A stretch of DNA of 36,254 bases from Rhodocyclaceae bacterium (GTDB lineage Bacteria; Pseudomonadota; Gammaproteobacteria; Burkholderiales; Rhodocyclaceae): NCBI GenBank assembly GCA_024710925.1, contig JANJTW010000023.1, forward strand, positions 1 to 36,254. Reading direction: 5' to 3'. Position numbers and translations under genes: made by a program. Below, in pieces: positions 7,365 through 21,572 of this stretch. The notes beneath the pieces are model-generated. The model was not told where the DNA came from, searched no databases, and saw nothing but the letters and a program-made list of their open reading frames with translations. How positions within the stretch are numbered: the first letter of the stretch is position 1; each line of letters begins with the position of its first letter.

Positions 7365-7417
7365 GGGGCCTCCGTCGGTCGGGTTACTGGCTGGCGGCTT
7401 CGTCGCCCGCCACTTGT

Positions 7418-7432
7418 TGAGAATAATTCTCA
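7418..7432. promoter_or_regulatory. Fur-box-like 7-1-7 palindrome
   Basis: TGAGAAT-A-ATTCTCA, perfect inverted repeat resembling TGATAATnATTATCA. On the minus strand it overlaps the -10 region downstream of a TTGACT -35-like hexamer (AGTCAA at 7449-7454). Confidence 0.8.
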
Positions 7433-7460
7433 TAAATGTGAAAAGCAAAGTCAAGACAGA

Positions 7461-7554: not shown

Positions 7555-7582
7555 TTGCGAAAAACTCCGGCATCCGTATAAT
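7555..7582 (+). promoter_or_regulatory. Sigma70-like promoter for the plus-strand heme locus
   Basis: TTGCGA - N16 - TATAAT. A degenerate Fur-like sequence (TGCGATCCGTTCTCA) overlaps the -10/start region just downstream. Confidence 0.65.
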
Positions 7583-7644
7583 GCGATCCGTTCTCATTTG
7601 CAACAACAGGGGCCGGGCGGTCGATGGGTCGGACCGACGTCCGC

Positions 7645-7770: not shown

Positions 7771-10053
7771 ATGTCTGCCGTTCGCGCGCATTCGCGCAGT
7801 CGTTTCATCCCCCGTCCGCTGGTCGCGGCCGTAAGCACCGCCCTCGCCACCCTTGCCGCTGCCGCACCGCCGGCCTTCGCCGAGCAGCAGCTGCGCGAGA
7901 CCGTCGTCACCGCCACGCGCAGCGAGGCGGCCATCGACGACCTGCCGCTCACCGTCACCGCCGTCACGCGCCAAGAGATGGACCGCCGCCTGCCGATGGA
8001 CGAGGCCGACCTCTTCCGCGACGAGCCCGACGTGGCGATGGCCCGCGACCTGCGCCGTTTCGGCGCAACGCGTGTGAACATCCGCGGCATCGAGGACAAC
8101 CGCGTCGTGCAGATGGTTGACGGGGTGCGCCTGCCCGATTTCTACAACGGCGGCGGCCCGACCAACTTCACGATGAGCGCAACGCCGTCGGCCTTCCCCG
8201 ACTTCCTGAAGCAGGTCGAGATCGTCCGCGGCCCGGCTTCCAGTCTCTACGGCTCGGACGCGATGGGCGGCGTCGTCGGCTTTGTCACGCTCGATCCGGC
8301 CGACATCGCCAGCGGCGACAAGAAAGCCGCGGTGCGCGTGCGCGGCGGCTATTCCGGCACAGGCGACCAGTTCTCGGGCAGCGTCGTCGGCGCCCTGCGC
8401 GGCGATTCGGCCGAGTTCCTGCTCGGTTACGGCGAGGCACGCGGCCACGAGACTGACAACATGGGCAAGGACGGAAGCACCGGCGCACGCCGTGAGAAGG
8501 CGAACCCGACCGATACCGCCGACCGCGGCCTGCTCGCCAAGCTGGTGCTGAGGCCGGCGGCCGGGCACAAGCTGTCGGCCACCGTCGAAAGCCGCGAGCA
8601 GAACGTCGAGACCGACATCCGCCGTCTTTCGGCGTCGCTGCCGCGGGTGACGACGATGCTCGGCGACGATAGCAGCGAGCGCACCCGCTTCAGCCTGGAA
8701 TACGAGCACAAGCCGGCCGGCCTCTTCTACGACCGGCTGACGGCGCGCGTCTATCACCAGGACGCCAAATCGCACAACGAGAACTACCAGCGCCGCAGCA
8801 ACACCAGCGCCGGCTGCTCGGCGGTGACCGCCGGCGCCAACCAGTGCGACCTCTACCAGGACTTCTTCTTCGAGCAGCAGAGCGCCGGCCTCAACCTGCA
8901 GTTCGAATCGCTGCTCGGCAAGGACGTGACTCACCTCCTCACCTACGGCCTCGATCTGATGCGCCTCGACACCGAGGAGCTGCGCGACGCGACCGCCTAC
9001 AACCGGACCGCTGGCACCTCGACCAAGAACATCGTCGGCGAAACCTATCCGCTGCGCGACTTCCCGAACGGCCGCAGCGACACCGTCGGCCTCTTCCTGC
9101 AGGACGAGATCGGCGGCCTCGCCGGCGGCCGGCTGACGCTGACGCCGGGAATCCGCTACGACCACACCCGGCTGAAGCCGGAGGTCGACGCGCTGGCGCA
9201 GGGCGTGCTGACGGCGATCAACCGCAGCGTTTCCGAGCAGAGCTACAGCCGCTTCTCGCCGAAGCTCGCGGCGCAGTGGAAGTTCAGCGAGCGGCTGTCG
9301 ACCTACGGCCAGATCGCCGCCGGTTTCCGCGCGCCGAACTACAACGAGGTCAACGGCGCCTTCCGCAACAGCGCGCAGCGCTATGCGACGACCCCGAACG
9401 GCGAGTTGAAGCCGGAGACCAGCGTCGGCGTCGAGTTCGGCCTGCGCGCCAGGGCCGCGACGGCGCGCGCCCAGATCGCCGTCTTCCACAACAAATACAA
9501 GGATTTCATCGAGAACGTCCGCCTCGCCTGCCCGGCCGACCCGGCCTGCGTGACGATCGGCGGCATCAACTACATCACCTACCAGTCGCGCAACCTTTCC
9601 AAGGTCCGCATCTACGGCGCCGAAGCGCGCGGCAGCTGGGACTTCCAGCCGGGCTGGCGCGTCGACGGCGCGCTCGCCTACGCGCATGGCGACAACCAGG
9701 AGGACGGCGAGCCGCTGAACAGCATCGAGCCGCTGCGCGCCAGCCTCGGCCTGGTTCGCGACGCCGGCAGCTGGGGCGCTGAGGCACGCCTGCGCGCGGC
9801 AAGCCGCAAGGACCGCATCGACGACAGCGGCGGCCGCTACTACCGCACCCCGGGCTACGGCGTCACCGACCTCGCCGCGTGGATCAAGCCCAGCCGCGAT
9901 ACGCGCGTCACCGTCGGCGTGAACAACCTGTTCGACAAGAAGTACTGGCTGTGGAGCGACATCCGCCAGGCCGACTCGATCAACCCGGTCGCCGTCGACT
10001 TCTACTCGCAGCCCGGACGGACCTTCCGCATCGCCTTCCAGGCCGACTTCTGA
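7771..10053 (+). CDS. TonB-dependent hemoglobin/transferrin/lactoferrin-family (heme) receptor
   Basis: Signal peptide, TonB box-like ETVVTATRSE, plug VNIRGIEDNRVVQMVDGVRLPDFYNGGGPTNF, VEIVRGPASSLYGSDAMGGVVGFVTLDP, C-terminal PGRTFRIAFQADF. Confidence 0.9.
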   Translation: MSAVRAHSRSRFIPRPLVAAVSTALATLAAAAPPAFAEQQLRETVVTATRSEAAIDDLPLTVTAVTRQEMDRRLPMDEADLFRDEPDVAMARDLRRFGATRVNIRGIEDNRVVQMVDGVRLPDFYNGGGPTNFTMSATPSAFPDFLKQVEIVRGPASSLYGSDAMGGVVGFVTLDPADIASGDKKAAVRVRGGYSGTGDQFSGSVVGALRGDSAEFLLGYGEARGHETDNMGKDGSTGARREKANPTDTADRGLLAKLVLRPAAGHKLSATVESREQNVETDIRRLSASLPRVTTMLGDDSSERTRFSLEYEHKPAGLFYDRLTARVYHQDAKSHNENYQRRSNTSAGCSAVTAGANQCDLYQDFFFEQQSAGLNLQFESLLGKDVTHLLTYGLDLMRLDTEELRDATAYNRTAGTSTKNIVGETYPLRDFPNGRSDTVGLFLQDEIGGLAGGRLTLTPGIRYDHTRLKPEVDALAQGVLTAINRSVSEQSYSRFSPKLAAQWKFSERLSTYGQIAAGFRAPNYNEVNGAFRNSAQRYATTPNGELKPETSVGVEFGLRARAATARAQIAVFHNKYKDFIENVRLACPADPACVTIGGINYITYQSRNLSKVRIYGAEARGSWDFQPGWRVDGALAYAHGDNQEDGEPLNSIEPLRASLGLVRDAGSWGAEARLRAASRKDRIDDSGGRYYRTPGYGVTDLAAWIKPSRDTRVTVGVNNLFDKKYWLWSDIRQADSINPVAVDFYSQPGRTFRIAFQADF

Positions 10054-10130: not shown

Positions 10131-10427
10131 ATGGATACCGCACCGAAACCGCAACTGCCCGATCCGGACGCGCTCGTCGCCGCGCTGCTGACGATGATGA
10201 CGCGCTTCTCCTGCCTCGGCTGCCCGCGCCTGGCCGGCCGCATCCGGCGAAATCTCACACTGCTGAAGCACTACGGCGACGACGAAATGTCACCGCTGCT
10301 GAAGCAGCTCGCCGTCCGCCTCGAAGGCGAATGGGCGCAACTCCAGTTCGCGCTCGCCGACACCGAAGAACCCCAGACCGCCACCGATCACCACGCCACC
10401 CTGCCCGCCAGCCAGTCGCTGCACTGA
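10131..10427 (+). CDS. Small hypothetical protein with CLGC motif (98 aa)
   Basis: MDTAPKPQLPDPDALVAALLTMMTRFSCLGCPRLAGRIRRNLTLLKHYGDDEMSPLLKQLAVRLEGEWAQLQFALADTEE...; AAGGAG SD upstream; lies between the receptor and the cobN-like gene. Confidence 0.75.
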   Translation: MDTAPKPQLPDPDALVAALLTMMTRFSCLGCPRLAGRIRRNLTLLKHYGDDEMSPLLKQLAVRLEGEWAQLQFALADTEEPQTATDHHATLPASQSLH

Positions 10428-10453: not shown

Positions 10454-13400
10454 ATGCCGTTTTCCCGATTGTTCCGTCACGCCCTGCTCGCCGCCACCCT
10501 GCTCGCCGGCGCCGCTCAGGCCGACACCGTGCTCTTCGTCTCGACCAGCCCGGTGCCGCACGGCAAATTCACGAAACTCGCCGAGATCGGCGCCGCGCAC
10601 GGCTTCAAGGTCGAAGCGAAGCAGGCCGAGAAGCTGCCGGTCGAGCCGGACGCCTCGCTGTGGCGCGGCGCCGACCTCGTCGTCTTCGACGCGCCGCGCG
10701 ACCACCTGCGCGAGCAGATGCGCGCCAGGCTGGCCAAGGCGCTGCCCGCCCTCACCGTAGCGCAGCTGTGGATGCACGACAGCCAGCCGGAGGCGAAGGG
10801 CCTGCCGAAGCCGCTTGCCGACCGCCTGCACGCCTATTACATGAACGGCGCCCGGCCGAACTTCGAGAACTTCTTCCGCACGCTCGCCGCGCACCGCCAG
10901 GGCCAGCCCTTCGCCGGCATCCCGGCGCCGGTGGTCTTCCCGAAGGCGGCGATCTACCACCCGCAGGCGCCCGGCCTGGTCTTCGCCCATACGGCCGACT
11001 ACCTCGCATGGAAGCAGGTCGACCTGGCGAAGAAGCCGCCGATCATCGCCGTCGCGCTGCACCAGACCTACGTCGGCAGCGAACAGACCGCCTTCGTCGA
11101 CGACCTGATCGCCCGCATCGAGGCCGCCGGCGCCGTGCCGCTGGCCTGGTACGCGCCGGTGATGGGGCCGCAGGGCGGGCTGCTCAAGGTCGACGGCCAG
11201 CTCGTCGCCGACGCCATCATCAATACCCAGATCGTCCTCGACCCCGACGGGCGCCGGCAGGAACTGGCCGCCCTCGGCCTGCCGGTCATGCAGGCGCTGT
11301 CCTACCGCAAGGGCGACGAGGCCGACTGGCGCGCCGACCCGCAGGGCGTGCCGCTGATCGACGTGCCCTTCTTCCTCGCCCAGGGCGAATACGCCGGCAT
11401 CGCCGACGCCGTCGTCGCCGGCGCGCAGAAGAAGGGCGACGACGCGGTCACCGTCGTTGCCGAGCAATCGGCCGCCGTCGTCGCCAAGGCGCTGAACCAG
11501 GTCCGCCTGCAGCGTCTGGCGAACATCGACAAGAAGCTGGCGGTGATGTTCTGGAACTACCCGCCGGGCGAGAAGAACCTGTCGGCCTCCTACCTCAACC
11601 TGCCGAAGAGCTTCGTCGCCACGATGCAATCGTTGCAGGCGGCCGGCTACGACATCGAGCCGGAAGCGGAAACGATCCTCATCGGCAAGCTGCAGCGCCT
11701 GCTCGCCCCGTTCTACCGCGACGGACAGCTGCAGCCGCTGCTGCGCGACGGCTTGGCCGACAGGCTGCCGGTCGCCGTCTACCGCCGGTGGCTGGCGACG
11801 CTGCCGGAGCCGGTCCGCCGCGAACTGCACGAGCGCTGGGGCGAGCCGGAAAAGTCGGCGATGGTCGTCGCCAACGACGGCGCGCCGTACTTCGTCATCC
11901 CGCGCCTTTCCGCCGGCAAGACGGTGTTCACGCCGCAGGCACCGCGCGGCGAGAAGTGGGAAAGCAAGGAGAAGGCGCTCTACCACTCGACCAAGGCCGT
12001 CCCCTCGCACTACTACCTCGCCCAGTATCTGTGGCTGCGCGAGCAGTTCAAGGCCGACGCACTGATCCACTACGGCACGCACGGTTCGCAGGAATGGCTG
12101 CCGGGCAAGGAGCGCGGCCTCGCCATGACCGACTACCCGATGCTGGCGGTGGGCAACGTGCCGGTGATCTACCCGTACATCGTCGACAACATCGGCGAGG
12201 CGCTGCAGGCCAAGCGCCGCGGCCGCGCCACCATCGTCACGCACCAGACGCCGGCCTTCGCGCCGGCCGGCCTGCACGAGGCGACGGTGAAGATCCACGA
12301 CCTCTTGCACGCGTGGCTGGCGCAGGACGACGGCGCGGTCAAGCTGAAGCTCGCCGCCGACCTCAAGGCAGCGGTGCAGCAGGAGCGCATCGTCAAGGAC
12401 ATGGGCTGGAGCGAGGCGAGGATCGACGCCGAGTTCCGCAACTTCGTCGACGCGCTGCACGACCACCTGCACGAACTGGCGCAGACCGCGCAGCCGCTCG
12501 GCCTGCACACCTTCGCGACGCCGCCGCAGGAAACGCACCGCCTCGGCACCGTGCTGCTGATGCTCGGCAAGGGCTTCTGGGAGAGCGCGGCGAAGACCGC
12601 CGGTGTCGACGCCGGCGAGCTCGACGAAATGTTCGTCGCCAGCTACGAGAAGACCGTCGATGCACCGCCGTTCAGGCTCTTCCGCGACTGGCTGGACGGC
12701 CGCACGGCCAAGCCCGCCGACGCCGCGCTCGGCGAACGCTTCGCCCAGGGCAAACGCTGGTACGGCGACCTCGGCGCCGCCAACGAGATTAACGGCCTGC
12801 TCGCCGCGCTCGCCGGCAAATACATCCCGACCTCCTACGGCGGCGATCCGATGAAGAACCCGGACGCGCTGCCGACCGGCCGCAACCTGTATGGCTTCGA
12901 CCCGTCGCGCGTGCCGACGAAACAGGCTTGGGAAGCCGGCAAGGAGGCCGCCGAAGCGCTGCTCGCCGCGCACCGCGCAAAAACCGGCAGGACGCCGAAG
13001 AAGCTCGCCTTCTCGCTGTGGTCGGTCGAGACGATGCGCCACCAAGGCATGCTCGAAGCGCAGGCGCTGTGGACGATGGGCGTCGAGCCGGTGTGGGACC
13101 AGGGCGGACGCGTCGTCGATGTGCAGCTGGTGCCGCGCGACAAGCTCGGCCGGCCGCGCGTCGACGTCGTGCTGTCGGCGACCGGCCTCTACCGCGACCA
13201 TTTCCCGAACGCGATGAAGCAGCTGGCCAAGGCCGTGCAGCTCGCCGCCCGCGCCAAGGAGGCCGACAACCCGATGTTCGAGAACAGCCGTGCCATCGCC
13301 GCCCGGCTGATGAAGCAGGGCATCCCGGAAGCCGCGGCGGTGAAGGCCTCGGAAACGCGCATGTTCTCGTCCGAATCGGGCAAGTACGGCACCGGCCTCG

Positions 13401-14458
13401 ACGACGCGACGCTGGCCACCGATACCTGGCAGGGCAAGGCCGAGGGCGACCGCAAACTCGCCGACCTCTACCTGTCGCGCATGCAGTTCGCCTACGGCGC
13501 CGACGAGTCCGACTGGGGCAGCAAGGGTGCCCTCGGCGGCACGGCAAATGCAGCCGGTGCCGACGGGGAAGCGAGCCGCGGCGGTGCAAACATCAACCTC
13601 TACGCCGAGCACCTGAAAGGCACCGAGGGCGCCGTGCTGTCGCGCACCTCCAACCTCTACGGCATGCTGACCACCGACGATCCCTTCCAGTACCTCGGCG
13701 GCATCGGTCTCGCCGTGCGCCGCCTCGACGGCAAGGCGCCGGAGCTGTACATCTCGAATCTCCGTGGCGCCGGCAGCGGCAAGATCGAAGGCGCCGACGC
13801 CTTCCTCGCCAAGGAACTGGCGACGCGCAACTTCCACCCCGGCTACATCAAGGGGCTGATGGCCGAGGGCTACGCCGGCACGCTGCAGGTACTCGATGCG
13901 ATGAACAACTTCTCCGGCTGGACCATCGTCGCCCGCGAGATCGTGCGCGACGACCAGTGGCAGGAGTTCGCCGACGTCTACGTCCGCGACAAGCACGACC
14001 TCGGCCTGAAGGACTGGTTCGAACGGCACAACCCGGCGGCGCTGGCGCAGACCATCGAACGCATGCTCGAAGCGGCGCGCCAGGGCTACTGGCAGGCCGA
14101 CCCGCGCACGCTGGCCGAGCTGAAGGACCGCTACCGCGACCTCGCGCAGCGCCACGACGTCGTCACCGACAACCGGGCCTTCAAGGACTTCGTGGCCCCG
14201 GGCTTCGGCCTCTCGGCGCGCGCCGCCGCGCTGCCGGCGACGCGCCCGCAGCAGGCCGCCGACCTGGCGCCGCCGCCCGCCGCACCGGCCCCGCCGCCGG
14301 TGCAGGGCATGCTCCTCGAACGCGTCGAGGAAAAACCGGCGCCGCCGGCCCTGCCCTTCGCCCTGCTCGGCCTGGCGCTGCTGACGCTGGCCACCGTCGG
14401 CGGCGCCGCGCGCGCGCTGACCAATCCGGCGCTCGGCCGGACGGAGGTGACGGCATGA
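10454..14458 (+). CDS. CobN/ChlH (HmuS)-like chelatase with signal peptide and C-terminal TM anchor
   Basis: ALIHYGTHGSQEWLPGKERGLAMTDYPMLAVGNVPVIYPYIVDNIGEALQAKRRGRATIVTHQTPAF is the CobN/BchH core signature; N-terminal MPFSRLFRHALLAATLLAGAAQA; C-terminal Pro/Ala linker plus LPFALLGLALLTLATVGGAARAL. Confidence 0.9.
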   Translation: MPFSRLFRHALLAATLLAGAAQADTVLFVSTSPVPHGKFTKLAEIGAAHGFKVEAKQAEKLPVEPDASLWRGADLVVFDAPRDHLREQMRARLAKALPALTVAQLWMHDSQPEAKGLPKPLADRLHAYYMNGARPNFENFFRTLAAHRQGQPFAGIPAPVVFPKAAIYHPQAPGLVFAHTADYLAWKQVDLAKKPPIIAVALHQTYVGSEQTAFVDDLIARIEAAGAVPLAWYAPVMGPQGGLLKVDGQLVADAIINTQIVLDPDGRRQELAALGLPVMQALSYRKGDEADWRADPQGVPLIDVPFFLAQGEYAGIADAVVAGAQKKGDDAVTVVAEQSAAVVAKALNQVRLQRLANIDKKLAVMFWNYPPGEKNLSASYLNLPKSFVATMQSLQAAGYDIEPEAETILIGKLQRLLAPFYRDGQLQPLLRDGLADRLPVAVYRRWLATLPEPVRRELHERWGEPEKSAMVVANDGAPYFVIPRLSAGKTVFTPQAPRGEKWESKEKALYHSTKAVPSHYYLAQYLWLREQFKADALIHYGTHGSQEWLPGKERGLAMTDYPMLAVGNVPVIYPYIVDNIGEALQAKRRGRATIVTHQTPAFAPAGLHEATVKIHDLLHAWLAQDDGAVKLKLAADLKAAVQQERIVKDMGWSEARIDAEFRNFVDALHDHLHELAQTAQPLGLHTFATPPQETHRLGTVLLMLGKGFWESAAKTAGVDAGELDEMFVASYEKTVDAPPFRLFRDWLDGRTAKPADAALGERFAQGKRWYGDLGAANEINGLLAALAGKYIPTSYGGDPMKNPDALPTGRNLYGFDPSRVPTKQAWEAGKEAAEALLAAHRAKTGRTPKKLAFSLWSVETMRHQGMLEAQALWTMGVEPVWDQGGRVVDVQLVPRDKLGRPRVDVVLSATGLYRDHFPNAMKQLAKAVQLAARAKEADNPMFENSRAIAARLMKQGIPEAAAVKASETRMFSSESGKYGTGLDDATLATDTWQGKAEGDRKLADLYLSRMQFAYGADESDWGSKGALGGTANAAGADGEASRGGANINLYAEHLKGTEGAVLSRTSNLYGMLTTDDPFQYLGGIGLAVRRLDGKAPELYISNLRGAGSGKIEGADAFLAKELATRNFHPGYIKGLMAEGYAGTLQVLDAMNNFSGWTIVAREIVRDDQWQEFADVYVRDKHDLGLKDWFERHNPAALAQTIERMLEAARQGYWQADPRTLAELKDRYRDLAQRHDVVTDNRAFKDFVAPGFGLSARAAALPATRPQQAADLAPPPAAPAPPPVQGMLLERVEEKPAPPALPFALLGLALLTLATVGGAARALTNPALGRTEVTA

Positions 14459-16782
14459 GCCCCGCCGCCTCGCCGCTGGCTTCCGGCAAGTCCTTTCCGG
14501 AAGCCGTCGCCCCGTCCACCGCCATGGCCGCGCCCCCGTTCGCGCGCCGCCCCGCCGGCCCGCTCGCCGCCCTCGCCCTCGCCTTGCTCGCCGCCCCGGC
14601 AGCGGCGGAAACCCGGCTCGACGAAGTCGTCGTCACCGCCCCCCACGACGGACTCGCCGACCGCCGCGAGGCAGTCACCCAGAAGACCGTGCTCGACCGC
14701 AAGGAGATCGAGTCGCTCGGTGGCCTGACCGTCGGCGAAGTCATCCGCAAGCTGCCCGGCATCGACGCCGGCGAGCATTCCGGCGACGGCGCGCCGAGCG
14801 CCAAGGCGCGCGGCATGGGCCGCGACGCGGTGCAGTTCCTGGTCGACGGCGAACGGCCGACGGCCAACGCGCGCTACGCGCTGACCCTGGTCGGCCGCCT
14901 GCCGTCCGGCGAACTGGAACGCATCGAGATCCTGCGCGGTGCGTCGGCCGAGCACGGCGGCGGCGCGCCGGTCACCGTGAATCTGGTGATGAGGAAGGCC
15001 AAGCCGGTGGCCTCGACGACGCTGAAGACCGCCGTCGGCATCCGCGGCAGCAGCGGCGGCTTCGGCGGCCGAAGTGGTGCAGATTACGAGCCGAACGGCC
15101 AGTTCTCGGTCAGCCGCGGCGGCGGCGGCCAGCTCGACGACGGCACGCAGTTCTCGTGGCTGCTGCCGCTCACCGTGAACCACCACGGCCTGCCGCTCGA
15201 CAAGACGACGACGCGCATCCATTCGAACGCCGGCACGCGCAACCTGTGGCAGGAGGACCGCGAGCGCGGCCCCTACGAACTGAACGAGCTGATCCTGTCG
15301 CCGCGCCTGACCTGGAAGAAGGCCGGCGACAGCCTGACGCTGTGGCCCAGCCTCTACCGCAACGAGGGCACGCGCGAGTCGGTGCTGACCCGCTCGGCCT
15401 ATGCGAATCCGGCCGCCGGCACCGGCCTCGGCGCCGCCGGCGGCCGCGTCGACAACGAAGACAGCGACCTGACCATCGCCCGCCTGCGCGCCGAGGGCGA
15501 AATGAAGCTGGCCGGCGGCGGCAAGCTCTCGGGCCGCGCGGCGACGATGGGCGGCTGGCGCGACAGCGACACCGCGCGCAGCTGGCGCGACGCCGTCGGC
15601 ACCGTCACGACCCGCCGCGAGCAGCTCGGCCGCGACGAGCGCGAATTCTCCGCCGCCGTCCGCCTCGACCGGCCGCTCGGCGAGGCGATGAGTTCGTTCG
15701 GGCTGGAAGCGGCAACGCACCGGCGCGAGGAAACGCAGACGATTGTTGGCGACCTCGCCGGCAACGGCGCCTTCGCCGCGAGGCGTGAGACGGCCGACGC
15801 CAGCCAGCAACAATGGACCGCCTGGGCGCAGCACGAGTGGTCGCCGCGCGTCTTCGCGACCATGCCGCTGACGCTCACCGCCGGTCTGCGCGGCGAGAGC
15901 ATCCGCCTCGAATCCGATGGCCGCGACCGCCATGCCGGACAGCTGGCGCCGTCCATCGCCGCCCGCCTCGACGCCGGCGGCGGCTGGATCGCCCGCTCGT
16001 CCGCCGGCGCCGGCATCAAGGCGCCGAAGCTCGACGAAATCTCGGCGATCACCATCGGCAATACCGCCAGCGCCACCGGCAACACGCCGCTCGAACCCGA
16101 CCGCGCCGGCAACCCGAACCTCAAGGCCGAACGCAACGTCAATGTCGAGCTGGGTCTGGAACGCTACCTCCAGGGCGAAGCCGGCGAGATGGGCGTCCTC
16201 GGCGCCAGCGCCTACTGGCGGCGCACCGGGGATTTCATCGAGCGCACGACGCGACGCGAAGGCGCACGCTGGGTCGAACGCCCGACCAACCAGGGCACGG
16301 CGCGCCACTACGGCGTCGAGTTCGACGCCCGGCTGAAGAGCGAACTGTTCGGCGTCAAGGGCGGCGCGCTGCGCGCACACCTGACGCTGCCGCAGGGTCG
16401 TGTCGACGACCAACGACTGGGCACCACGCGCGACGCGCGCGAGCTGCCGCGCTACCAGTTCACGCTCGGCTACGAGCAGGCCTTGCCGTTGCTCGCATCT
16501 TCCGCCGGCTTCCAGCTGACGAAGAACGGCAGGACGCGCACCGACATTCCCGGCGAGCTCGCCGACGGCACGACGCGCGGCACGCTGCTCGACGCGCACT
16601 GGGTGAGGAAGCTCTCGTCCGCGCTGAACCTGCGCCTCTCGGCGCAGAACCTGCTGCGCGCCGACACGAAACGCAGCTCGGCGGCCTGGTCGAACCTCGT
16701 CGCCGGCACCGACGACTGGCGGCTGGCGAGCACCGAGAAGGGCCAGATCACCTGGCTGCTGTCGCTCGAAGGCAAGTGGTAA
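14455..16782 (+). CDS. TonB-dependent receptor (plug plus beta-barrel)
   Basis: ATGA overlap with the cobN-like gene; signal peptide, TRLDEVVVTAP TonB box, VGEVIRKLPGIDAGE, MGRDAVQFLVDGERP, LERIEILRGASAEHGGGAPVTVNLVMRK plug motifs; C-terminal LLSLEGKW. Confidence 0.88.
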   Translation: MSPAASPLASGKSFPEAVAPSTAMAAPPFARRPAGPLAALALALLAAPAAAETRLDEVVVTAPHDGLADRREAVTQKTVLDRKEIESLGGLTVGEVIRKLPGIDAGEHSGDGAPSAKARGMGRDAVQFLVDGERPTANARYALTLVGRLPSGELERIEILRGASAEHGGGAPVTVNLVMRKAKPVASTTLKTAVGIRGSSGGFGGRSGADYEPNGQFSVSRGGGGQLDDGTQFSWLLPLTVNHHGLPLDKTTTRIHSNAGTRNLWQEDRERGPYELNELILSPRLTWKKAGDSLTLWPSLYRNEGTRESVLTRSAYANPAAGTGLGAAGGRVDNEDSDLTIARLRAEGEMKLAGGGKLSGRAATMGGWRDSDTARSWRDAVGTVTTRREQLGRDEREFSAAVRLDRPLGEAMSSFGLEAATHRREETQTIVGDLAGNGAFAARRETADASQQQWTAWAQHEWSPRVFATMPLTLTAGLRGESIRLESDGRDRHAGQLAPSIAARLDAGGGWIARSSAGAGIKAPKLDEISAITIGNTASATGNTPLEPDRAGNPNLKAERNVNVELGLERYLQGEAGEMGVLGASAYWRRTGDFIERTTRREGARWVERPTNQGTARHYGVEFDARLKSELFGVKGGALRAHLTLPQGRVDDQRLGTTRDARELPRYQFTLGYEQALPLLASSAGFQLTKNGRTRTDIPGELADGTTRGTLLDAHWVRKLSSALNLRLSAQNLLRADTKRSSAAWSNLVAGTDDWRLASTEKGQITWLLSLEGKW

Positions 16783-16817: not shown

Positions 16818-17300
16818 ATGTCCACCCTGGTCGAAACCACGATGTACCAGATCTCGCAGGTCTTCCTGCTGCCGACGCTGGCGCTGATCGCCATCCTTTT
16901 CCTCTACGCCTTCTGGGTGCTCGGCGAGTTCGCCGTGCTCGCGCTGCGCCGCCGGCACGGCGCCGGCCGCGCGCTGGTTTCGCACTTCGCGCGCGCGCCG
17001 CAGCTCACCGCCGACGAACTCGACGTGCTCGCGCACAAGGCGCTGGAAACGCCGCGCATCGCCAGCCGGGTGACGCCGATGCTCGGCCTCGTCGCGACGA
17101 TGATTCCGATGGGCCCGGCGCTGAAGTCGCTGTCCGACGGCAATCTGGCGCAGGTCTCGGAAAACCTGACCGTTGCCTTCTCGGCGGTGATCCTGGCGCT
17201 GATCGCCGCGTCGATCACCTACTGGGTGGTGAACGTCCGCCGCCGCTGGCTCGCCGAGGAACTGCTGGAGATCGAGGCGCTGCGCGGGGTGAAGGCATGA
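16818..17300 (+). CDS. MotA/TolQ/ExbB proton-channel family protein
   Basis: TPMLGLVATMIPMGPALKSLSDGNLAQVSENLTVAFSAVILALIAASITYWVVNVRRRW; AAGGAG SD before ATG 16818. Confidence 0.86.
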   Translation: MSTLVETTMYQISQVFLLPTLALIAILFLYAFWVLGEFAVLALRRRHGAGRALVSHFARAPQLTADELDVLAHKALETPRIASRVTPMLGLVATMIPMGPALKSLSDGNLAQVSENLTVAFSAVILALIAASITYWVVNVRRRWLAEELLEIEALRGVKA

Positions 17301-17409: not shown

Positions 17410-17736
17410 ATGAAGCTGCTGCACGAACCGGAGACCGAGGACCCGATCCTGTCGGTGGTCAACCTGATCGACATCTTCCTCGTCATCATCGCCGCGCTGC
17501 TCATCACGGTGGCGCAGAACCCGCTCATCAACCCGTTCAACAAGCAGGACGTGACGGTCATCACCGACCCCGGCAAGCCGAGCATGGAAGTGCTCATCAA
17601 GAAGGGCGAAAAGATCGAGAAGTACAAGGCCAACGGCAGCATCGGCAGCGGCGACGGCGAAAAGGCCGGCGTCGCCTACCGCATGCAGGACGGCTCGATG
17701 GTCTACGTACCGGAGGGCGGCGACGCCGCACGCTGA
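17410..17736 (+). CDS. DUF2149 family protein (ExbD-like topology, one N-terminal TM)
   Basis: DPILSVVNLIDIFLVIIAALLITVAQNPLINPFNKQDVTVITDPGKPSMEVLIKKGEKIEKYKANGSIGSGDGEKAGVAYRMQDGSMVYVPE, typical DUF2149. Confidence 0.85.
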   Translation: MKLLHEPETEDPILSVVNLIDIFLVIIAALLITVAQNPLINPFNKQDVTVITDPGKPSMEVLIKKGEKIEKYKANGSIGSGDGEKAGVAYRMQDGSMVYVPEGGDAAR

Positions 17737-17765: not shown

Positions 17766-18539
17766 ATGAGCGCCGCCATCCACCCCCATGTCATTCTCGA
17801 CTGCATCAACGCGCGCCGCTTCGGCGTCGAATACCAGCCCTTCGTCGACCTGCGCAGCGGCGAGGTCCTCTGCCACGAGGCGCTGGCGCGCTTCGTCGAC
17901 GCCGACGGCGGCGCGCTGCCGCCGGACCGGGTCTTCGGCGCGCTGCACGACAACCCGCTGCTGCTGCTGCACACCGAGCTGGAAATGAAGCGCCTGCAAC
18001 TCGCCGAAGCGCCGGCGCACGGCCAGCTCTTCGTCAACCTCGACCCCGACAGCTACGTCGCCGGCGAAACCGCCGACAGCGGCAACCTGTTCCTGCCGCT
18101 GCTCGCCGCGCAGCGGCAGCGGCTGGTCGTCGAGATCATCGAGAACCTGCACCTGCAGGACGTCACCATCTCCGAGCGGATGATCGCCGCACTCGCCGGT
18201 GCTGGCATCCGCATGGCCGTCGACGACCTCTCCTCGTCGCGCGGCCTCGTTTCCTACGCGGCGCTGATGAGCGCTTCCTTCGTCAAGTTCGACCGCAGCT
18301 GGCTCGCCGGCGAGATGAACGCACGCCAGCGCACGCTGCTCACCTGGGCACTGGCGCAGGCCGCCGACCTCGGCCTCGTCACCGTTCTCGAAGGCGTCGA
18401 GAACGAGGCGCACCTGGCGCTGGCGCGACAGATGGGCTTCAACCTCGCGCAGGGTTTCCTCTACCGCGAGCGCTTCATCCGCCGCGGCTGCCAGCCCAGC
18501 CGGCGCCCGACCGCCCGCGGCAGCCTCGCCGCCGCCTGA
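17766..18539 (+). CDS. Stand-alone EAL domain protein (putative c-di-GMP phosphodiesterase)
   Basis: YQPFVDLRSGEVLCHEALARF (EAxLxR-type), LFVNLDPDSY, EIIEN, MAVDDLSSSRG, VKFDRSWL, LEGVENEAHL, AQGFLY. Confidence 0.82.
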   Translation: MSAAIHPHVILDCINARRFGVEYQPFVDLRSGEVLCHEALARFVDADGGALPPDRVFGALHDNPLLLLHTELEMKRLQLAEAPAHGQLFVNLDPDSYVAGETADSGNLFLPLLAAQRQRLVVEIIENLHLQDVTISERMIAALAGAGIRMAVDDLSSSRGLVSYAALMSASFVKFDRSWLAGEMNARQRTLLTWALAQAADLGLVTVLEGVENEAHLALARQMGFNLAQGFLYRERFIRRGCQPSRRPTARGSLAAA

Positions 18540-18579: not shown

Positions 18580-19188
18580 ATGGCCCGCTACACCGGTCCC
18601 CGCCTGAAGATCGTCCGCGCCCTCGGCATCGAGTTGCCCGGACTCACCCGCAAGACCCCGAACCGCGACTACGGCCCCGGCCAGCATGGCGCCAAGCCGA
18701 AGCGCAAGTCCGGCTTCGGCATCCAGCTGATGGAAAAGCAGAAGCTGCGCTACAACTACGGCGTGTCCGAACGCCAGATGCAGCGCCTCTTTCGCGAGGC
18801 GAAGAACGACAAGGGGCAGACCGGCGCCAAGCTGCTCGAACTGCTCGAACGCCGGCTCGACAACGCCGTCTTCCGCACCGGCTTCGCGCCGACCGTCGTC
18901 GCCGCCCGCCAGCTGGTCAGCCACCGCCATCTGCGCCTGAACGGCCGGCCGGTGAGCATCGCCTCAATCCGGGTGAAGCCCGGCGACGTAATCTCGCTGA
19001 CGGAAAAGGCGCGGCGCATGCCGCTGGTCGTCGAGACGCTTGCCGCACCGCCGCTGACCCGACCGGAATGGCTTGCCTTCGACGAGGGCAAGGCGGCGGC
19101 GACCGTCACTCGCCTGCCCGAAGCAAACGAGGTGCCGTTCCCGATCGAGGTGCAGCACGTCGTCGAGTACTACGCGGTCAGGCTGTAG
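18580..19188 (+). CDS. rpsD: 30S ribosomal protein S4, divergent Cys-free paralog
   Basis: [36 protein letters not shown]...[42 protein letters not shown]4 family, but the N-terminus is closer to the cyanobacterial/plastid type than the usual proteobacterial MARYLGPKLKLSRREGTDL. Confidence 0.9.
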   Translation: [202 protein letters not shown]

Positions 19189-19295: not shown

Positions 19296-19310
19296 TGCAA
19301 ATCATTCTTG
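19296..19310 (+). promoter_or_regulatory. Fur-box-like site upstream of the FecA-like receptor
   Basis: TGCAAAT-C-ATTCTTG, with -10-like TATACT at 19313-19318. Confidence 0.65.
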
Positions 19311-19316
19311 TTTATA

Positions 19317-19345
19317 CTCCGGCTCCGGCTCCGGCTCCGGCTCCG
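19317..19345 (+). repeat. Hexanucleotide repeat (CTCCGG)4-5 in the receptor 5' leader
   Basis: ctccgg ctccgg ctccgg ctccgg ctccg. Confidence 0.9.
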
Positions 19346-19469
19346 TCGCCGCCGCCTGGAGCCTGAGCACCGCCGCCCCCGGCAGCCGCCGGCGCCGGCC
19401 CCCTTTCCAGCCAGCCACGTCGCCCCCCTTGCGTCCAGCCAGCCACACACTCAACGCAAGGAGCTTTTG

Positions 19470-21572
19470 ATGAGCAGCACGTTTCTCCATCCGTCGGCCA
19501 ACCGATCGGCGATGACGAAAACCCGGATCGCCATGGCCGTCGCGGCGGCCATCGCCATTCCCGCACAGGCGTTCGCCGCGGAAATCGAATTGCCGAGAAT
19601 CGACGTCATCGGCCAGGGCGACGAGGCGATCACCAAACAGCCGGGCGCCGTTGCCATCATCGGCAAGGAAGACTTGGCGCTGATGCACCCCCTGTCCACG
19701 CAGGATGCGCTCAAGTCGGTGCCCGGCATCGTCGTGCGCGAGGAGGAAGGTTACGGTTTCATCCCGAACATCGGCATGCGCGGCCTGAACCCGAACCGCA
19801 GCCAGAAGCTGCTGGTTCTCGAAGACGGGGTGCCGGTGGCGCCCGGCCTCTTCCTCGCCAATGAGTCCTACTACAGCCCGCGCATCGAGCGCATGGAAAG
19901 CATCGAGGTGCTGAAAGGCGCTGCCGGCCTGCGCTACGGCCCGACGACCATCGGCGGCGTCATCAACTACAAGACCAAGAAGCCGGAGGACGGCGTCCGC
20001 GTCACGGCCAAGGCCGGTTCGCACGGCTATCGCCTGCTCGGTCTCGATGCCGGTGGCGCGACGCCGTCGGGCGAGGCAGTCGGCGGCATCAGCCTGGTCA
20101 CGTCGCGCGGCGACGGTTTCCGCCACAACGATTTCGACATGAACGACATCGTCGTCAAGGGCGGCATGATGATCGGCGACAAGCAGTGGGTGAGCGTCAA
20201 GTTCTCGCACTACGACAACGACATCAACACGTCCTATGTCGGCCTGCGTCCCAATGAGTACCGCCGCAATCCGACGAAGAATCCGGCGCCGAACGATTAT
20301 TTCGAAACCGAGCGTAACTCGTTCGACATCAACCACGAGCTGGAAATCAGCGACAACGTGAAGCTGAAAACACTCGTCTACTGGTCACAACTCGACCGCG
20401 ACTTCTGGCGCCGCGAGATTCAGGCGCGCAGCGCCAACGGCACGACCTACCGCGCCTGCGACGGCGTCCAGAACTGCATGACCGGACGCAACCGGGCCTT
20501 CGAGATGGCCGGCGTCGACAGTCGCCTGTTCGTCAATTACAACGGCTTCGGTATCCGCAACGAAGCCGAAATCGGCATTCGCCTGCACAGCGACAAGCTG
20601 AGCAACCAGACCGTCAGTTCGAAGACGGACCCGGATGCACGCTCCGGCACGCTGACCGGCGACGACACCCAGAAGGCCCGCGGTATCGCCTTCTACGGCC
20701 AGAACCGCTTCCACTTCACCGACAAGCTTGCCGCCACCCTTGGCCTGCGCGTCGAATCCTACGACCAGCGCCGCAAGAACGAGCTGACGGGCGCATCCGG
20801 CGATTCGAACAACACGGAAGTCATGCCCGGCCTCGGTGTGACGTGGCAAGTCATTCCGGAAGCCCAGCTATTCGCCGGCGCCTACAAGGCGTTCTCGCCA
20901 GCGATGGTGGCCACCGCCATCAGCGGTGCCGGCGTGGACGAAGAGCTCGACGCCGAACGCTCGACCAACCTCGAAGCCGGGGTCAGAGGCAAGCTTGCAC
21001 GCCTGACCTATGAAACCACCGTTTTCCAGATGGACTTTGCCAACCAGATCGTGCCCAAGTCGGAATCCGGCGGCGTCGGCGCGACGGTAACGAATGCCGG
21101 TGAAACCATGCATCGCGGGCTGGAAGCCGGCCTTGGCTTCGACATCGGTCGCGGCTGGCATCTGGGCGCGAACCTGACCTACCTGCCGACGGCGAAATAC
21201 GACAGCACCAAGATCGTCGGTGGCATCGACCGCAACGGCAATCGCCTGCCGTACGCGCCGAAGCTGACGTCGAATCTCGCACTGAGCTACAGGACGGGCG
21301 GTCTGATGACCAGCCTGAGCGCACACCACATGTCCCGCCAGTACGTCGATCCCGAAAACACCAAGGCCGAAAGCGCCGACGGCCGGCGTGGCGAGATCGA
21401 CGCCTACACGACCTTCAACCTGAACGCCCACTATCAGGTCGACAAGAAGCTGAGCGTGTTCGGCACCGTGCGCAATCTGTTCGACCGGAAGTACATCGCC
21501 AGCCGCAATCCGGACGGCATCTTCCCGGGCGCCGAACGCAACTTCGAAGTGGGCATGAGCTACAAGTTCTGA
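19470..21572 (+). CDS. TonB-dependent receptor, FecA-like (siderophore/ferric dicitrate type)
   Basis: LPRIDVIGQGDEAITKQPGAVAIIGKEDL, VPGIVVREEEGYGFIPNIGMRGLNPNRSQKLLVLEDGVPVAPGLF, IEVLKGAAGLRYGPTTIGGVINYKTK; C-terminal ERNFEVGMSYKF. Start at ATG 19470 with AAGGAG SD. Confidence 0.87.
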   Translation: MSSTFLHPSANRSAMTKTRIAMAVAAAIAIPAQAFAAEIELPRIDVIGQGDEAITKQPGAVAIIGKEDLALMHPLSTQDALKSVPGIVVREEEGYGFIPNIGMRGLNPNRSQKLLVLEDGVPVAPGLFLANESYYSPRIERMESIEVLKGAAGLRYGPTTIGGVINYKTKKPEDGVRVTAKAGSHGYRLLGLDAGGATPSGEAVGGISLVTSRGDGFRHNDFDMNDIVVKGGMMIGDKQWVSVKFSHYDNDINTSYVGLRPNEYRRNPTKNPAPNDYFETERNSFDINHELEISDNVKLKTLVYWSQLDRDFWRREIQARSANGTTYRACDGVQNCMTGRNRAFEMAGVDSRLFVNYNGFGIRNEAEIGIRLHSDKLSNQTVSSKTDPDARSGTLTGDDTQKARGIAFYGQNRFHFTDKLAATLGLRVESYDQRRKNELTGASGDSNNTEVMPGLGVTWQVIPEAQLFAGAYKAFSPAMVATAISGAGVDEELDAERSTNLEAGVRGKLARLTYETTVFQMDFANQIVPKSESGGVGATVTNAGETMHRGLEAGLGFDIGRGWHLGANLTYLPTAKYDSTKIVGGIDRNGNRLPYAPKLTSNLALSYRTGGLMTSLSAHHMSRQYVDPENTKAESADGRRGEIDAYTTFNLNAHYQVDKKLSVFGTVRNLFDRKYIASRNPDGIFPGAERNFEVGMSYKF

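Follow-up and report, generated by a model that had tools for sequence, protein, structure and literature searches.

An exported CobN-like protein in a Fur-type uptake operon of a Rhodocyclaceae bacterium, and its putative coupling to an ExbB-like/DUF2149 pair

The operon and the ends of its CobN-like protein

The window considered here, a 36,254-nucleotide stretch of DNA from a Rhodocyclaceae bacterium (positions 1 to 36,254 of contig JANJTW010000023.1, assembly GCA_024710925.1), carries an operon whose central gene encodes a large CobN-like protein. The gene order is TonB-dependent receptor 1, a 98-residue protein, the CobN-like protein, TonB-dependent receptor 2, an ExbB-like protein and a protein of family DUF2149 (Table 1). 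The CobN-like open reading frame is intact and lies exactly where a preliminary description of this DNA had placed it; its stop codon shares an ATGA with the start of the next gene. The two ends of the protein, its active site and its neighbours bear on where it works and on what might drive it.

Table 1. Features of the operon and of the CobN-like protein in the window
Feature	Position	Strand	Basis or remark
Fur-type palindrome TTGAGAATAATTCTCATAA, ahead of the operon	7417..7435		Perfect GAGAATAATTCTC palindrome
Second Fur-type box ATAATGCGATCCGTTCTCATTTG	7578..7600		20/23 to consensus
TonB-dependent receptor 1, by profile match of the heme/hemoglobin receptor subfamily	7771..10053	+	TIGR01786, TIGR01785
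98-residue protein with CLGC motif	10131..10427	+	No Pfam or NCBIfam match; conserved in 12 loci
CobN-like class I chelatase-fold protein, very probably exported and membrane-anchored, 1334 residues	10454..14458	+	Pfam CobN-Mg_chel, NF004644, AlphaFold2, Foldseek
Predicted signal peptide, residues 1-23	10454..10522	+	Hydropathy and conservation
His543, equivalent of HmuS His538	12080..12082	+	Invariant in 50 sequences
Asp1076, aligned with HmuS His1209	13679..13681	+	Not kept as His here
Juxtamembrane motif VQGMLLERV, residues 1283-1291	14300..14326	+	Motif in 45/47 sequences
Predicted C-terminal transmembrane helix, residues 1300-1322	14351..14419	+	Hydropathy and conservation
TonB-dependent receptor 2, divergent	14455..16782	+	No family above cut-off
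ExbB-like (MotA/TolQ/ExbB) protein, HmuU-like	16818..17300	+	Pfam MotA_ExbB 2.6e-7, alignment
DUF2149 protein, HmuV-like, one transmembrane helix, small C-terminal domain	17410..17736	+	Pfam DUF2149 5.6e-29, alignment

The N-terminal sequence is MPFSRLFRHALLAATLLAGAAQA/DT; it contains basic residues and a hydrophobic stretch, and A-Q-A stands ahead of the putative cut. At the other end a Pro/Ala linker (residues 1271-1282) is followed by the juxtamembrane motif, the helix LPFALLGLALLTLATVGGAARAL and a short basic tail. Averaged over 19 residues, the hydropathy of this helix is 1.93, against a maximum of 1.16 within the body of the protein. Topology was judged by hydropathy, conservation and the positive-inside rule; comparisons drew on 58 related loci in named genomes, chiefly of Rhodocyclales and Burkholderiales, and on 47 full-length sequences (the window protein and 46 relatives). 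An N-terminal hydrophobic signal is kept in 46 of the 47, the C-terminal helix in 45, and both together in 44. The tail is net positive in 98% of them, which is compatible with an orientation of tail in and body out. Directly before the helix, the motif [VI]xG[MLIQFY]x[LM], which the preliminary description does not mention, occurs in 45 of the 47 sequences (shuffled mean, 0.16), and six cytosolic CobN and ChlH controls had neither the helix nor the motif.

The preliminary description had proposed these very ends, a cleavable Sec-type signal and a Pro/Ala linker leading to one C-terminal helix, and the comparison with relatives bears it out. A start codon downstream of the signal, which it had named as one outcome that would undo its proposal, is ruled out: the next in-frame Met lies near residue 84, beyond the point (about residue 25) where the conserved stretch begins, and the relatives start 18-50 residues ahead of that stretch with hydrophobic leaders of unrelated sequence. 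That the protein is exported and anchored in the inner membrane can be held with high confidence on these sequence features, and with export and anchoring the CobN-like body must be periplasmic.

Family, fold and active site

The Pfam model CobN-Mg_chel is spanned in full by residues 126-1219 (E value 3.7e-297), and the NCBIfam model NF004644, which takes in the exported CobN-like proteins, scores 1415 bits against a cut-off of 1248 over residues 4-1320, covering both ends. The canonical profiles stay under their equivalog cut-offs: CobN (TIGR02257) at 487.6 bits of 822.05 and ChlH/BchH (TIGR02025) at 552.9 bits of 829. NCBI names NF004644 cobaltochelatase subunit CobN, as would suit an ordinary cytosolic CobN with incidentally hydrophobic ends. 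The retention of both ends in nearly all full-length relatives and the low canonical scores led to the rejection of that reading, which is extremely improbable; CobS, moreover, was not found in the organism's own genome.

An AlphaFold2 model of the body (residues 24-1222, from an alignment of 36 sequences) reached a predicted local distance difference test value (pLDDT) of 87 and a predicted template modelling score of 0.85. With this predicted body, the best solved structures in Foldseek were Mycobacterium tuberculosis CobN (7c6o; template modelling scores 0.82/0.84) and HmuS (9d26; 0.78/0.75). A quick tree without bootstrap places the exported forms on one side of a branch from cytosolic CobN and ChlH (Shimodaira-Hasegawa-like approximate likelihood ratio test, 98); HmuS forms a long branch of its own. 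The fold and core motifs are those of the CobNST cobaltochelatase and the ChlHID magnesium chelatase; those enzymes, unlike the window protein, are cytosolic, have ATP-driven AAA/VWA partners and insert metal.

Periplasmic CobN-like proteins are already known in Bacteroidota, namely HmuS and BtuS (PMC6460266, PMC12583661, PMC13227078). HmuS of Bacteroides is a demonstrated periplasmic heme de-chelatase, converting heme to protoporphyrin IX and Fe(II); its catalytic residues include His538, of an HxGTHG motif and essential for heme turnover, and Glu577, and His254 with Met79 is a heme ligand at the head/neck (PMC12583661). The window protein shares with HmuS (hmuYRSTUV of Bacteroides and Porphyromonas; PDB 9d26) the export, the C-terminal anchor, the CobN fold and the equivalents of His538 and Glu577, and its operon shares with hmu a TonB receptor, the ExbB-like and DUF2149 proteins and iron regulation. 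It differs in identity (about 25% by structural alignment), in length (1469 residues in HmuS) and in an N-terminal signal that looks cleavable; the operon lacks HmuY and HmuT and has a second receptor and the 98-residue protein in addition.

In 50 aligned sequences His543 and Glu582, the counterparts of HmuS His538 and Glu577, are invariant, and so is Ser1199. The position of His254 is taken by Ile at residue 260. In LTTDDPFQYLGG, the counterpart of the LSLDHxxEFMGG motif, Asp1076 and Gln1079 replace His1209 and Glu1212, and neither the translation nor the aligned region contains the Met-rich insertion of HmuS domain IV. Relatives from Azospirillum, Stella and Acinetobacter, in contrast, keep the His pair. 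HmuS proper is ruled out as an identity for the window protein by these changes and by the missing insertion; on sequence comparison the protein is assigned to the exported clade of HmuS, within a proteobacterial subgroup without the HmuS-defining residues.

The Asp in place of the HmuS His recurs in B12-type and Trichlorobacter proteins, and might be taken to mark a true chelatase that inserts metal in the periplasm; the preliminary description had spoken of a periplasmic chelatase. The operon, however, is an uptake operon under Fur that encodes no tetrapyrrole synthesis enzyme, and among exported relatives the one that has been characterised takes metal out (PMC12583661). Insertion is accordingly considered improbable: the periplasmic half of the earlier term stands, and de-chelation is the likelier activity. 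The enzyme probably takes the metal out of a tetrapyrrole that the cell imports, heme for instance.

Regulation and the imported compound

Two Fur-type boxes stand ahead of the window operon, and among 53 operons 26 have a box of 17/23 or better in front of them, where 1.9 would be expected. The count is somewhat generous, since the consensus had been retuned on the strength of an initial scan. No Zur box stood out in a scan of the window. Rfam matched no riboswitch and nothing else in the window; on that ground cobalamin control of this operon was dropped as a reading. Receptor 1 exceeds the cut-offs of both heme/hemoglobin models (TIGR01786, 451 bits against 324; TIGR01785, 436 bits against 317). 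Classical heme receptors are expected to carry a His between the FRAP and NPNL motifs, and receptor 1 has none there, so that heme is for this receptor a family label only.

The same genome encodes a second exported CobN-like protein, with a signal (MRRLLLAACLLPLPAIAA) and a C-terminal helix, on contig 177 (locus L063, 2191-11870). Its operon runs from a cobalamin riboswitch through a BtuB-like receptor, BtuC, BtuR, the CobN-like protein, an ExbB-like protein and DUF2149 to a CbiA-like protein. This arrangement recurs in related genomes, where a cobalamin riboswitch is found at 8 of 10 B12-type loci. Such BtuS-type proteins (the name is credited to Rodionov 2003 in PMC6460266) resemble the window protein in signal, helix and ExbB-like and DUF2149 neighbours; they differ in length (about 1450 residues), in their riboswitch and BtuB/BtuC/BtuR/CbiA context and by an identity of about 30%. 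A further likeness, by published description, is PA1922-PA1925 of Pseudomonas aeruginosa, in which a TonB receptor, a CobN-like protein, an ExbB/D-annotated protein and DUF2149 form one operon, there under Zur (zinc) control instead of Fur. Upstream of an Acinetobacter operon (L060, 7997-8019) lies an AT-rich Zur-box-like palindrome, GTTATGTTATAACATAAT, which at a shuffle p of about 0.18 is suggestive only; it is consistent with the Zur control of the P. aeruginosa operon and not significant alone. As the contig 177 operon shows, the trio of CobN-like, ExbB-like and DUF2149 proteins is a module that goes with more than one kind of receptor and regulator.

The substrate in the window operon could, then, be another metal complex: a corrinoid, in a salvage role like that of BtuS, a zinc complex or a metallophore. 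Such a reading draws on the riboswitch operon of the second exported CobN, on the 44- to 147-fold induction of the Zur-regulated PA1922-1925 in a zinc-uptake (znuA) mutant, on the Asp at the His1209 position, which the B12-type proteins share, and on the missing receptor His. It is opposed by the Fur-type boxes, by the place of receptor 1 within the heme/hemoglobin subfamilies, by the lack of a cobalamin riboswitch at this operon and by the paralog, which already holds the cobalamin role. An alternative substrate of this sort is a tentative possibility; heme itself is put at about an even chance.

The ExbB-like/DUF2149 pair: enzyme or receptor

In the cytosol, class I chelatases depend on an ATPase ring that works the CobN/ChlH subunit (PMC7689651). 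For a CobN-like protein outside the cytoplasm, the ATP-driven motors CobS/CobT and ChlI/ChlD would be unusable. The operon encodes no ATPase partner, and elsewhere in the genome ChlD gave only sub-cut-off matches; the failure to find CobS is weak evidence, since the assembly comprises 262 contigs at 90% completeness.

Across a survey of 47 CobN/ChlH loci, AAA/VWA partners accompanied cytosolic forms only (6 loci) and exported forms in no case. ExbB-like and DUF2149 genes, in turn, were near 11 of the 11 helix-bearing proteins and 0 of the 36 others (35 without a helix, plus L117, a typical cytosolic CobN with a borderline helix score that was counted as cytosolic). Searched in 299 genomes of the phylum, DUF2149 was found at 12 places, each with a CobN homolog no more than about 2.5 kb away. 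The B12-type CobN proteins with a helix have an ExbB-like gene near in 12 of 12 cases and DUF2149 in 11 of 12. A single haloarchaeal plasmid CobN locus is of the ordinary type, beside a VWA protein. One B12-type exported CobN (L151, 3411-7601) has a signal but no C-terminal helix; a BtuF-like protein and BtuC follow, a BtuB receptor is present, and there is neither an ExbB-like nor a DUF2149 gene. To judge from its genes, this locus is a natural case in which the helix and the motor were lost jointly.

The published hmu model assigns HmuU and HmuV to the powering of the receptor HmuR (PMC12583661), and on that pattern the pair in the window would simply help TonB to energise the receptors of the operon, with the CobN-like protein working alone. 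TonB receptors do usually lie next door to the pair, and HmuS is active in vitro without HmuU/V. The distribution of DUF2149, however, follows CobN and not receptors, as its 12 of 12 places beside CobN homologs show. On a plasmid of Trichlorobacter the trio is accompanied by a full ExbB-ExbD-TonB set that is distinct from it, a plasmid of OTU4NAUVB1 has ExbB, DUF2149 and CobN with no receptor nearby, and at the helixless B12-type locus BtuB is kept where the pair is gone. The archaeon Methanosarcina acetivorans, examined as a control, has DUF2149 and CobN homologs and no ExbD; in the genome from which the window comes, four ExbD genes lie at other places. Receptor powering by the pair is on this evidence unlikely. 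The comparative data suggest that energising of the CobN-like protein by the ExbB-like and DUF2149 proteins, a possibility raised in the preliminary description, fits better than the published role, and coupling of this kind to the enzyme is regarded as somewhat favoured.

The likeness to TonB-ExbB-ExbD and TolA-TolQ-TolR extends to the parts. The ExbB-like protein is of that family, DUF2149 has one transmembrane helix with an acidic residue and then a small domain, and the client has a single transmembrane helix and a proline linker. The differences are that Pfam reports DUF2149 alone for this protein and does not call it ExbD, and that the client is a C-terminally anchored enzyme rather than TonB or TolA. 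The acidic residue is a near-invariant Asp (D21), and the helix NLIDIFLVII aligns with PLIDVMLVLL of ExbD (hhalign E 1.3e-4, probability 54%, over the helix only). A search of the PDB with the DUF2149 profile returned chance or low-complexity matches and no ExbD. In the literature searched, no function for DUF2149 was found.

Several loci vary the arrangement. At L005 (10001-20430) two CobN-like genes of one operon, about 39-42% identical, flank receptor 2 and are followed by a single ExbB-like/DUF2149 pair. Beside the trio in Trichlorobacter lies a DUF2162 gene (L091, 3867-4568), and in Bacteroides an unannotated gene in the hmuT position (L089, 9994-10707); neither has a counterpart in the window operon, and either may encode a permease for released metal. 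A Runella plasmid (L092, 1-11821) carries the trio, a TonB receptor and a urease-accessory-annotated gene amid hypC, hypD, hypE and hypF, surroundings that hint at a nickel-related version.

Downstream of the window operon are an EAL-domain-like gene (17766-18539, plus strand), a ribosomal protein S4 paralog (18580-19188, plus strand) and, 3' of the latter, a third TonB receptor (19308-21572, plus strand) of siderophore/FecA type, over the cut-off of TIGR01783. In the loci of 16 relatives, the distant Uliginosibacterium included, an S4 paralog likewise lies close to the operon.

A proposed cycle and the points against it

The preferred reading, to which a probability of roughly 0.5 is assigned, is that the window encodes a periplasmic HmuS-like de-chelatase for iron/tetrapyrrole uptake under Fur, with a proton-motive-force motor of its own to drive or reset it. 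The operon's TonB-dependent receptors would bring a tetrapyrrole into the periplasm, where, in iron starvation, the CobN-like enzyme would strip the metal; iron, taken from heme or from a heme-like compound, is the likeliest case. The motor in the inner membrane would consist of the ExbB-like protein and DUF2149, the latter as an ExbD-like stator subunit with its transmembrane aspartate. This motor would grip the enzyme through the C-terminal helix and the VxGMxL motif, and drive or reset its catalytic cycle. HmuS frees iron from heme with NADH and without ATP, and the recombinant protein, made without transmembrane helices and without HmuU/V, carries out 1-2 turnovers only (PMC12583661). Sequence itself shows the export and the anchoring, the conservation, the fold, regulation of the Fur type and the tight linkage of helix and motor genes; removal as the direction, heme as the substrate and the mechanical coupling are inferred.

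A number of observations weigh against this proposal. His254, His1209, Glu1212 and the Met-rich insertion of HmuS are all absent from the window protein, receptor 1 is without its FRAP-NPNL His, and many relatives have CirA-like receptors in place of the heme type. The linkage counts (11 of 11, 12 of 12 and their like) share descent within one clade and are not independent events. Outside its transmembrane helix DUF2149 shows no likeness to ExbD, and its AlphaFold2 model is poor (pLDDT 60). The helixless protein of L151 indicates that an exported enzyme can exist without the motor, and the in vitro activity of HmuS without HmuU/V indicates that a motor is not absolutely required for the chemistry. 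A btuS double mutant of Bacteroides fragilis, finally, still made protoporphyrin (PMC6460266).

Two other contigs of the genome carry genes that touch on iron and heme. On contig 88, FeoB, the published route for HmuS-released iron, is found together with an ExbD gene and a periplasmic-iron-binding-like gene. Contig 196 (L103) has a weak match to the heme oxygenase family, by which oxygen-dependent heme breakdown may also exist.

Implications for exported class I chelatases

Measured against the literature searched, the following are new: a proteobacterial iron-type subgroup with an active-site signature of its own; the juxtamembrane motif; the near-exclusive pairing of the helix with ExbB-like and DUF2149 genes; and hence a specific role proposed for DUF2149. 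A wider proposal, put at even odds, is that the exported class I chelatases form one clade in which the ATP-driven AAA/VWA motor was swapped for a dedicated, proton-driven ExbB-like/DUF2149 motor gripping the enzyme at the C-terminal helix and the VxGMxL motif, the module serving different metal-tetrapyrroles as set by the receptor and the regulator (Fur, a cobalamin riboswitch or Zur).

If the proposal is true, heme iron extraction of the anaerobic type would reach from gut Bacteroidota to environmental proteobacteria. The purpose of HmuU and HmuV, ExbB-like and DUF2149 proteins respectively, would be explained, as would the halt of recombinant HmuS after its first turnovers. The proton motive force, and not ATP, would drive a periplasmic metal (de)chelatase, and what the protons power would be an enzyme, not a transporter.

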